Made by a program: the position numbers and the translations under genes
NCBI GenBank assembly: GCA_001593685.1
Contig: LUKI01000018.1
Coordinates: 1-41,973 of the forward strand
DNA: 41,973 bases
Direction of reading: 5' to 3'
Source: Gammaproteobacteria bacterium F7
GTDB lineage: Bacteria > Pseudomonadota > Gammaproteobacteria > Pseudomonadales > IMCC2047
Part shown: positions 28,744 through 31,265 of the stretch, in pieces
How positions within the stretch are numbered: the first letter of the stretch is position 1
How the letters are laid out: each line of letters begins with the position of its first letter
The notes under the pieces: generated by a model
Database searches by the model: none
The model's input: only the letters and a program-made list of their open reading frames with translations
Told to the model about the DNA's origin: nothing

Positions 28744-28803
28744 AAGACTTAAAATCTTGCGACTTAACGGTCGTGCCGGTTCGATTCCGGCCCCGGCACC
28801 ATT
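28744..28803 (+). repeat. attR: tRNA-Leu 3' half direct repeat
   Basis: The 60-nt copy of the tRNA-Leu 3' half is identical to 20151-20211 except for one missing G in the acceptor stem. No 5' half of a tRNA precedes it. Confidence 0.95.
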
Positions 28804-29041
28804 CAAATCAAACCTTTCAGCGTTAGTAGCCACTAATCCCAAAATCATATAAAAATAGACATATCACGCGTCTAAAAATTTTTTATTTATTTTCTCTTGG
28901 CTTAAGTAGCCACACTTTTTTACACAACAAACTCGTGATTTTCTTTGCCTGCTATTTACGTTTAGCTGTAAGCATGGCAACTTCAGCTCCTTTCAACACA
29001 GCTTATATACACTAGAAAGCAACGTAAGGGACTAACGAAAA

Positions 29042-30799
29042 ATGCAACAAGAATGCATCATCAGAGCATTTTCTTTATCGGGCTACCGCAGCTTTGGAGC
29101 TGAAGAGCAGAAAATCAAAAGCCTATCCAAGATAAACCTATTTATTGGGCAAAATAACAGCGGAAAATCGAATATTCTGAGCTTTGTTCATGAGATTTAC
29201 CCTACCCTGTCAACTCACAATCAAGTCCAATTAAAGCCGTTAGATAATCATATTCCCACAAGAACAGATTTTAGCGTTGGGATATCAATCCCTTTAGAAG
29301 TAGACGAGAAAGGGGAAAACAAATACTTCAATGAAAAAATCCTACCTAAATTCAAGCAAGACATCATAAGAACACCTGCACCCGGGTATGCCCTCAGAGC
29401 TTTCCAAAAAAAAAGCGAAATTGATAACACAGAAGATGCCTGGTTCAACTTTGATAGTAATCTCACGCTAATTACTTCGACATGGGAAGAAGCCTTTGAG
29501 TGTCTAGATGACAGAGAAATCAGTAAGCTTTGGCAAGGCATCACCCGCTCTTCTGGCGGCGGCAGAACTCAACACTGGTATCCAGAGTCTCTACGTTACT
29601 TAACCCCCAAATTTGAACCTGCAAATACAGTTCTTATACCCGCAATTAGAAAGGTAGGTGATCAAGGCTCTGTATCTGAAGACTTCAGCGGTAAAGGTAT
29701 TATTGAGCGATTAGTAAGATTACAAAACCCTGACGTCCACAATCAAAGTGATAGAGAAAAATTCAATAAAATTAACCTCTTCTTGAGAAACGTAACCGGC
29801 AACACAACAGCTACAATTGAGATCCCGCACGAAAGGGACACCATTCTCGTCCATATGGACAATAAAACGCTGCCATTAGAGTCACTAGGAACTGGTATTC
29901 ACGAAGTACTAATCTTAGCATCGGCCGCAACAATACTTGAAAACACTGTGATCTGCATGGAAGAGCCAGAGTTGCACCTAAACCCAATCCTCCAAAAAAA
30001 GCTGATTAGGTATTTAGATAGTTCAACTAACAACCAGTATTTCATTACCACACACTCCGCAGCACTCATGGATACCCCTAATGCAGAGGTTTATCACGTA
30101 AGCATGCAGGATGGTGAGTCAAAAATCCGAAGGGTGACATCAGATAAACACAGATCTGAAGTTTGCGGAGACCTTGGTTATCACCCTTCAGACTTGCTTC
30201 AGTCCAATTGTATTATTTGGGTTGAAGGGCCATCAGACCGAATTTATCTAAACTTTTGGATTAATGCGCATTCGACCGGTCTTATTGAAGGCATTCACTA
30301 CTCAATAATGTTTTACGGCGGAAGGCTAGCATCACACCTTACTGGTGAGGATTCATCAGAAAAAGTTGACGACTTTATTTCACTTCGTAGATTAAATCGA
30401 AGAAGCGCCATTCTAATTGATAGCGACAAAAACAAGGCGAGAGCTCATATCAACAAAACCAAAAAACGTTTAAAAGCTGAATTTGACAACGGTCCAGGGT
30501 TTGCCTGGATAACAGATGGCAGAGAAATAGAAAACTACATTGACCCAGAGCTCGTCAAAACAGCAATTACAAAAACAAAACCTTCGGCAAAAATAAACTC
30601 AGAGCTTGGAAAGTTTGATAACCCATTGAGCATAATAACTAGGGGCGGCAAAGCCTCTCAAGCGTCTAAGATGGATGTTGCGAAATACATTACAGAAAAC
30701 TCAACGCCCAATCTCAACATTCATGACTTGAAAAGGCAGATTAAGAAGCTAGTTGATTTTATAGAGGCATCTAACCCGGCCACCCATGTAACCTCGTAA
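29042..30799 (+). CDS. OLD-family ATPase/TOPRIM nuclease (cargo)
   Basis: The 585-residue protein has an ABC-type ATPase domain: Walker A GQNNSGKSN at 36-44, signature-like LESLGTGIHE near 279, Walker B ICMEEPELH with Glu307/Glu308 and a switch His338 in TTHSAAL. A C-terminal TOPRIM domain follows, with Glu395 (WVEGPSDR), Asp460/Asp462 (LIDSDKNK) and GREIENY near 493. This is the OLD layout, found in P2 Old, Gabija GajA and PARIS AriA. No UvrD-like helicase (GajB) or AriB partner is adjacent, so it looks like a solo class 1 OLD nuclease. Such proteins block phage growth. It is AT-rich compared with the chromosomal genes. Confidence 0.9.
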   Translation: MQQECIIRAFSLSGYRSFGAEEQKIKSLSKINLFIGQNNSGKSNILSFVHEIYPTLSTHNQVQLKPLDNHIPTRTDFSVGISIPLEVDEKGENKYFNEKILPKFKQDIIRTPAPGYALRAFQKKSEIDNTEDAWFNFDSNLTLITSTWEEAFECLDDREISKLWQGITRSSGGGRTQHWYPESLRYLTPKFEPANTVLIPAIRKVGDQGSVSEDFSGKGIIERLVRLQNPDVHNQSDREKFNKINLFLRNVTGNTTATIEIPHERDTILVHMDNKTLPLESLGTGIHEVLILASAATILENTVICMEEPELHLNPILQKKLIRYLDSSTNNQYFITTHSAALMDTPNAEVYHVSMQDGESKIRRVTSDKHRSEVCGDLGYHPSDLLQSNCIIWVEGPSDRIYLNFWINAHSTGLIEGIHYSIMFYGGRLASHLTGEDSSEKVDDFISLRRLNRRSAILIDSDKNKARAHINKTKKRLKAEFDNGPGFAWITDGREIENYIDPELVKTAITKTKPSAKINSELGKFDNPLSIITRGGKASQASKMDVAKYITENSTPNLNIHDLKRQIKKLVDFIEASNPATHVTS

Positions 30800-30846
30800 G
30801 TCCTTTTAGTCATAATCCAGCATAAAGTGGGTTTTATGGCCTCTTG

Positions 30847-30935
30847 CTAACTTTTAATTTTGACCGTATAAAAATGTGACTAAGGCGGCGTTGTTGGGCC
30901 GGTAGGCTCCAGAGATTTAACCCGCCCCTACCCTT
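30847..30935. repeat. Element-specific repeat, copy C
   Basis: CTAACTTTTAATTTT at 30847 matches copy A exactly. It is followed by GTATAAAAATGTGACTAAGG, a diverged middle, and CCAGAGATTTAACCCGCCCC, which matches the ends of copies A and B closely. It lies outside attR, 50 nt after the OLD-like gene. Confidence 0.75.
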
Positions 30936-30945
30936 AGCCAAAAAA

Positions 30946-30973
30946 AAGCCGCCCCACATTAGCAGGGCGGCTT
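30946..30973 (-). terminator. Minus-strand terminator beside repeat C
   Basis: AAGCCGCCC / GGGCGGCTT has a 10-nt loop. On the minus strand it is followed by a run of seven T. No minus-strand gene is recognised just to the right, so it may be a leftover of the element or an insulator. Confidence 0.7.
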
Positions 30974-31265
30974 CGAATAGGCTGAATCGCCACCAATTCT
31001 CTAGACACTCACCAGCCTCTCTTTTTGCTTTAATTCCGTCAACGCCGCTCAAACAAGGTGTGTATATCAACCGATACAGCTCACAGTTTCAAAACCGCCG
31101 CCCTGTGGACTTTTTGAAAACAGAGGCATAGTATTTTCTCTTATAAGTCTTTTCGCGTCGGCATGAGTAAATCCATCCCCCCGTTGGAAAGACGATAAAA
31201 CTCCATCAACTTACTGTTTCATCTGGCAGGTTGATTCCGCTAACCGTTTGCGTGGAGTTAATAAA

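Follow-up and report, generated by a model that had tools for sequence, protein, structure and literature searches.

A putative satellite remnant with an OLD-like cargo gene adjoins a PICI-like cos satellite at tRNA-Leu(TAA)

Gene content of the element at tRNA-Leu(TAA)

The stretch of DNA analyzed here (the window, 41,973 nt) is a whole contig (C18) of a MAG of 2.58 Mb, 86% complete and in 214 contigs. It harbors an 8.6 kb element, hereafter element 1, integrated at tRNA-Leu(TAA), the third gene of a Gly-Cys-Leu tRNA cluster detected by ARAGORN, and bounded by identical 53-nt repeats at 20151 and 28744. With as many as 3 mismatches allowed, a search of the window revealed no third copy of this att core. 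The features assigned to element 1 are the following.

20123..20209, + strand: tRNA-Leu(TAA) (ARAGORN), the integration target; its 3' part is attL, with core 20151-20203 identical to 28744-28796
20210..20340, + strand: predicted attP arm, cargo side, with paired TAGACC-N6-TAGACC at 20270 (+60 from att)
20397..20873, - strand: cargo 1, 158-aa protein whose N-terminal segment is hydrophobic as judged from the sequence; no family match
21076..21789, + strand: cargo 1, zeta/PezT-like kinase (Pfam Zeta_toxin, E 4e-40; PezT 2p5t, E 3e-4)
22051..22119, - strand: predicted cos, copy A, between cargo 1 and the major capsid protein (MCP) gene (phage-only profile, E 2e-5)
22362..23681, - strand: HK97-fold MCP (Pfam Phage_capsid, E 5e-34; TIGR01554, E 2e-47)
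24409..24747, - strand: P27-type terminase small subunit, TerS (Terminase_4, E 7e-6; TIGR01558, E 4e-6, under its curated cut-off)
24779..24846, - strand: predicted cos, copy B, directly upstream of terS, the cos position of HK97-like phages (phage-only profile, E 3e-9)
25845..26090, - strand: AlpA/excisionase-like HTH protein (HTH_17, E 7e-4; PHROG 66 excisionase, E 2e-4; weak)
27316..28581, - strand: tyrosine integrase, reading inward (Phage_integrase, E 7e-17; relatives at tRNA-Leu(TAA))
28600..28616, + strand: paired arm sites TAGACCAAAAAATAGAC, integrase side, 143 nt from attR

Read from the integrase end, the order is integrase, two proteins without assignment, the AlpA-like protein, two small proteins, a palindromic stretch and a 67-nt repeat, followed by terS, two unknown proteins, the MCP, the 67-nt repeat again and the cargo. 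The frames at 25480-25842 and 24959-25510 gave at best a weak HTH match, and neither Pri-Rep nor DUF5906 was found. At the end of the latter frame, three short palindromic repeats (24913-25030, consensus CCCACCTGTGGG) are origin-like and may constitute a replication origin.

Element 1 shares with Gram-negative PICIs an inward-reading tyrosine integrase adjoining att, an AlpA-type regulator (weak matches), specific att direct repeats, a cos or terS (it has both) and the lack of tail and lysis genes. Its structural and packaging genes are MCP and terS only, and it differs from a capsid-forming PICI (cf-PICI), in which a full head module of portal, protease and TerL accompanies the MCP. As judged from its sequence, element 1 is a PICI-like cos satellite (int, AlpA-like, cos-terS-MCP-cos, cargo). 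We write PICI-like instead of PICI, since no replication module could be recognised in it and its dependence on a helper is a prediction. Searches with the MCP in viral contigs produced a single match, of 23%; single-sequence searches with the integrase in genome and viral contigs produced none, nor did TerS among phage records. A helper prophage, sought by TerL in the same (incomplete) MAG, was not found.

The 67-nt repeat as an HK97-type cos site

The 67-nt repeat occurs three times in the window, at 22053, 24780 and 30868, in direct orientation throughout and with 69-81% identity between copies. An order-wide search with it matched two prophages, in both cases at the end of an HNH gene; in one of them (L106) terS, terL, portal and protease follow directly after the repeat, and the contig of the other (L105) stops just past the site. 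A profile built from the three window copies only located the block upstream of terS in 7 of 8 annotated phages tested, namely HK97 (best, E 8e-7), K1LV, ST13, Kp4882, PSTR, mEp235 and Fraca, that is, HK97 and other Hendrixvirinae. The HK97 genome end (...GACCGCCGCCAAA/GTTTG) falls within the aligned block; the joined ends of the HK97 record read GGGGGATCAAATCTTCAAAACCTTTGCCCCAAATGACCGCCGCCAAA/GTTTG, and the corresponding part of window copy B reads GGGGGTCAAATCTCTACAGCCTTCGAGCCGTAGACCGCCGCCTTAGGTCAATTTTTAC. Conversely, a profile from four phage sites picked out the three window copies and no others (E 3e-9 to 2e-5; the next match had E 0.17); two of those four sites had first been found via the window repeat, and the independent test is that of the three-copy profile against phages.

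The block has the feature typical of an HK97-type cos, conservation between HNH and a P27-type terS with the cleavage segment included, and its sequence identifies the repeat as a site of this type, the DNA packaging signal of phages. An earlier note on this DNA had taken it for an element-specific repeat, a description overturned here, as the site is common to phages; element 1 carries two copies of it and not one. The match to phage cos sites likewise ruled out an origin or a transposon end. Exact-pattern matches of the repeat in viral contigs were two, both due to chance, inside coding sequence for A-K-[AE]-A-V-Y-G.

The terS-MCP block (22051-24846) is itself flanked by two cos sites in direct repeat, 81% identical, an arrangement that might have arisen by insertion of a packaging block at a cos already present.

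Paired arm sites next to the att core

Element 1 carries paired TAGAC sites on both its cargo and integrase sides. In four related tRNA-Leu islands, pairs spaced 11-12 nt lie at +57 to +63 inside attL, and an integrase-side pair lies at -122 to -146 in those four and in L094 (five others). The inside pair stands at the same or nearly the same place in 10 of 12 tRNA-Leu islands taken from genome contigs, with a chance expectation of about 0.001 per stretch. Conservation of these pairs in independent islands makes the arm a predicted integrase-binding region. A doubled motif at fixed attP positions and damaged tRNA fragments at attR have been reported for PICIs (PMC10111431), and the attR of element 1 lacks one G of the tRNA end.

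A second att-arm-cargo-cos order outside attR

The features found from attR outward are listed below.

28744..28801, + strand: attR of element 1 and attL of the putative remnant, with one G fewer than the tRNA copy (CCCCGGCACCA)
28802..28910, + strand: predicted attP arm of the remnant, with a single TAGAC site left (28856), the second lost
29042..30799, + strand: remnant cargo, full-length gene for a 585-aa AAA ATPase whose C-terminal region is TOPRIM-like (OLD/GajA/AriAB-like)
30829..30934 (core 30866-30934), - strand: predicted cos, copy C, with conserved flank (phage-only profile, E 6e-7)
30945..30974, - strand: intrinsic-terminator-like hairpin with T-run, by the right edge of the remnant

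The order att, arm, cargo, repeat present inside attL of element 1 recurs outside attR at 28802-30934, as the earlier note had proposed. In the comparison of the two, the arm and repeat regions matched and the cargo between them was unrelated. The arms (20210-20340 compared with 28802-28960, the match covering 28802-28905) gave a local score of 84 against a null of 18.6 +/- 2.8 (maximum 31 in 500 dinucleotide shuffles), and the repeat regions (22009-22119 and 30829-30934) a score of 64 against 16.5 +/- 2.4, with no shuffle near, corresponding to 24 and 20 SD above shuffles, respectively. Both arms contain the exact sequence CAGCGTTAGTAGCCACTAA (BLAST E 2.6e-10, whole genome searched), and homology of the repeat regions extends for about 45 nt into the flank that faces the cargo. 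The difference in cargo, also pointed out in the note, was confirmed: a zeta-like kinase (Zeta_toxin, E 4e-40) plus the 158-aa protein with the hydrophobic segment in element 1 versus an OLD-like AAA ATPase (AAA_15/AAA_21, E 4e-17) in the other. The GC content of both cargo segments is low (39-40% vs 49-50% in the flanks).

The 585-aa gene is full length against relatives 47-49% identical to it. It resembles the OLD family, GajA of Gabija and AriA of PARIS in combining an AAA_15 ATPase with a TOPRIM-like C-terminal region, the TOPRIM being indicated only by PADLOC models and by the residues of its motifs (EGPSD, DSD); the best of these models were GajA and fused AriAB, as partial, weak matches, and no PDB match was obtained. 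Neither GajB nor a separate AriB adjoins the gene, and no helicase-size ORF follows it before 31248, in contrast to the Gabija island L169 described below. Homologues of the OLD-like gene in two other genomes (G336 and G008) had no significant cos in the stretch examined around them. For both cargos, function is predicted from family matches.

Cos copy C is the last sequence homologous to element 1, and homology stops at 30934. To its right, within the window, there is no trace of int, terS, MCP or further att, and because no second attR was found in the window the right border of the remnant can be placed only within 30934-31247. A break exactly at the cos end, as would result from a linear cos-ended molecule joined to the chromosome, is disfavoured by the continuation of homology for about 50 nt past the cleavage segment. 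The next gene (31248-33482) encodes a 744-aa proline/threonine-rich protein with no relative among 56 genomes of the order; together with an S8 peptidase right of the remnant, it may be chromosomal or part of another island.

Origin of the sequence next to attR

Arm and cos are homologous and collinear, with unrelated cargo enclosed between them, which bears out the suggestion of a second-element remnant. We consider it very probable that the segment 28744-30934 stems from another PICI-like cos satellite, one of the kind to which element 1 belongs, and represents its tRNA-side end. The second satellite would have inserted first at tRNA-Leu(TAA), and element 1 later at the same tRNA end, its attR becoming the left att of the remnant. 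Everything beyond the cos (integrase, regulator, replication genes, terS/MCP) would then have been lost together with one arm site, the full-length OLD-like defence-type gene being retained. The order of insertion, the loss by deletion, the defence function and packaging by an HK97-like helper are what we infer from this arrangement; the simplest account would place the deletion after element 1 had inserted. The arm of the remnant is regarded as damaged because only one of its two sites is kept. Neither an intact second satellite nor an empty site turned up among the genomes compared. By analogy with the terS-first HK97 end, packaging would proceed from each cos leftward, through cargo, att and tRNA.

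A duplicated arm could also arise if element 1 had copied native chromosomal sequence beside attR along with att, with no second element involved. Captured flanks of this sort are known: when inside and outside arms were compared as a control in 25 other islands of the same integrase family, scores averaged 22 and the sole value near 84 was 75, in L217 (Methylotenera, tRNA-Met), where copies of a terminator-like hairpin that adjoins the tRNA lie both inside and outside the element. The duplication in the window, however, is longer, includes an integrase arm site and lacks a terminator, and 2 kb past it there is a phage-type cos with its element-1 flank. In addition, none of 391 genomes of the order had a significant match of this region by its tRNA-Leu, the match in G279 adjoining tRNA-Asn. 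We therefore hold such copying to be very improbable, and a purely chromosomal origin of the remnant is very unlikely because it carries a cos.

Assembly was considered as well, since in a MAG contig of this completeness, with two identical 53-nt repeats, a misassembly at the repeat is possible, and the tandem might be a chimera of two strain variants joined there. On the other hand, a 53-nt repeat is rather short to collapse with the k-mer sizes in common use, attR has its own one-base deletion, the cos copies are only 69-81% identical, and tandem stacks exist in other genomes, such as that of L099; we give a chimera hardly any credence.

The full-length cargo gene and the conserved cos copy C would suit a live minimal mobile cassette at 28744-30934 (att arm, defence gene, cos), moved by the integrase of element 1 or packaged in situ from its cos; lateral (co)transduction of PICIs has been published (PMC12829572). 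Nevertheless, the segment retains just one of the two conserved arm sites, the right att is absent and a second copy of the cassette was not found, making a live cassette unlikely. We raise only as a speculative idea, which we rather doubt, that the att arm, the defence gene and the cos together make up a cassette able to transfer on its own. Satellite cargo, lying directly downstream of cos in the packaging direction, would then be packaged first, even without excision, and a single helper phage could mobilise several defence genes from stacked cos cassettes along with the neighbouring satellite.

Comparison with known satellites

The closest parallels lie in published satellites. EcCICFT073, a Gram-negative PICI, is a small int/AlpA island with two functional cos sites that is packaged by cos phages (PMC6092414). 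Element 1 is like it in int/AlpA and in having two cos in one element, whereas the cos of EcCICFT073 is of the lambda/phi80 type, without terS or MCP, and those of element 1 are HK97-type, flank a terS-MCP block and are accompanied by a remnant with a third cos. SaPIbov5, a cos satellite with Ccm, and PmCI172, a PICI with an MCP homologue (PMC8569155, PMC6092414), likewise carry a capsid-protein homologue within a satellite (capsid function is predicted for element 1), and SaPIbov5 possesses in addition a cos of its helper's class; unlike element 1, SaPIbov5 lacks terS, and both reside in other hosts. Among PICIs, a four-zone organisation with an integration zone (int, AlpA) at one end and a dynamic zone at the opposite one, and tandems at one att, have been described (PMC10111431). 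The window elements agree with these in zone layout, tandem arrangement, doubled motif around the core and damaged tRNA copy at attR, and differ from them in integrase clade, in the TAGAC-pair arm motif, in the tRNA-Leu(TAA) target and in showing no Rep of the Pri/DUF5906 type.

A further satellite came from genome G206 (L144, tRNA-Thr):

2459-11418: 9 kb, 45-nt att repeats, int, AlpA, primase, HK97-type cos (E 6.5e-6), MCP

Its MCP is 32% identical to that of element 1, while its integrase and replication genes are unrelated, the MCP itself adjoins the tRNA, and the cos points the opposite way.

Published precedents (PMC6092414, PMC8569155, PMC10111431, PMC12829572) cover two functional cos per PICI, capsid homologues in satellites, far-end accessory genes, tandem PICIs and the transfer of defence genes through lateral transduction of PICIs. 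What is new is the way in which known parts are combined: a satellite with terS and MCP genes of its own between a pair of HK97-type cos sites, next to a remnant that carries a third. The family lies outside the usual model hosts, and its sequence lets one read the attP arm sites, the signal for packaging and the cargo slot.

Cargo slot and stacking in related islands

In related islands, with 39-46% identical integrases, cargo adjoins the tRNA-side att.

L095, at tRNA-Leu(CAA): C5-methylase and HNH nuclease
L096: NERD proteins; L166 likewise, judged by its start
L165 (Marinobacter orientalis): two-gene reverse-transcriptase (DRT-like) defence system
L169 (Pseudohongiella): Gabija
L171 (Marinobacter): SIR2-HerA

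Where a replication gene was recognisable in related islands it was mostly a GPA-type Rep. HK97-type cos was not detected in related islands of this integrase family, so the layout att, cargo, cos is shown for the two window elements only. A wider rule for the family, that cargo follows the tRNA-side att and precedes the next core module, is supported by these sequences, as is a general slot that carries swappable cargo, often anti-phage genes. From such a position, between tRNA-side att and packaging module, cargo could be swapped without touching integration, replication or packaging. Of the exchangeable slot put forward earlier, what held up is thus the differing tRNA-side cargo of independent islands with the same paired arm sites, and its place next to the repeat (cos) applies to the two window elements; in the same way, the proposed survey of other tRNA-Leu(TAA) islands with this integrase yielded varied cargo by att but no HK97-type cos.

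The arm pair together with the tRNA-side att offers a simple handle for finding defence genes. Slot genes at 16434-18979 of L168 and 6087-9739 of L176 had no PADLOC match, and such unknown genes are candidate new anti-phage systems because the block by the tRNA was often a known one in the islands examined. The remnant, for its part, would be a case in which a defence-type gene outlives the satellite that brought it, one way in which defence-gene islands may accumulate at a tRNA.

Stacking at one tRNA, also anticipated in the note, was seen beyond the window. L099 contains two elements in tandem, and in L176 a TAGAC pair outside attR, at 1100-1440, supports a second stacked element at tRNA-Leu(TAA). 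G018 is probably stacked too, since other contigs of it carry additional copies of att and a second, degraded integrase. The tRNA-Leu of 18 relatives showed no att duplication within about 15 kb (the L132 stretch was 1.6 kb, and some downstream sides were shorter). In G018, moreover, an integrase 53% identical lies by a tRNA-Leu-type att (L102/L037), adjoining genes that by eye are CRISPR type III-like.
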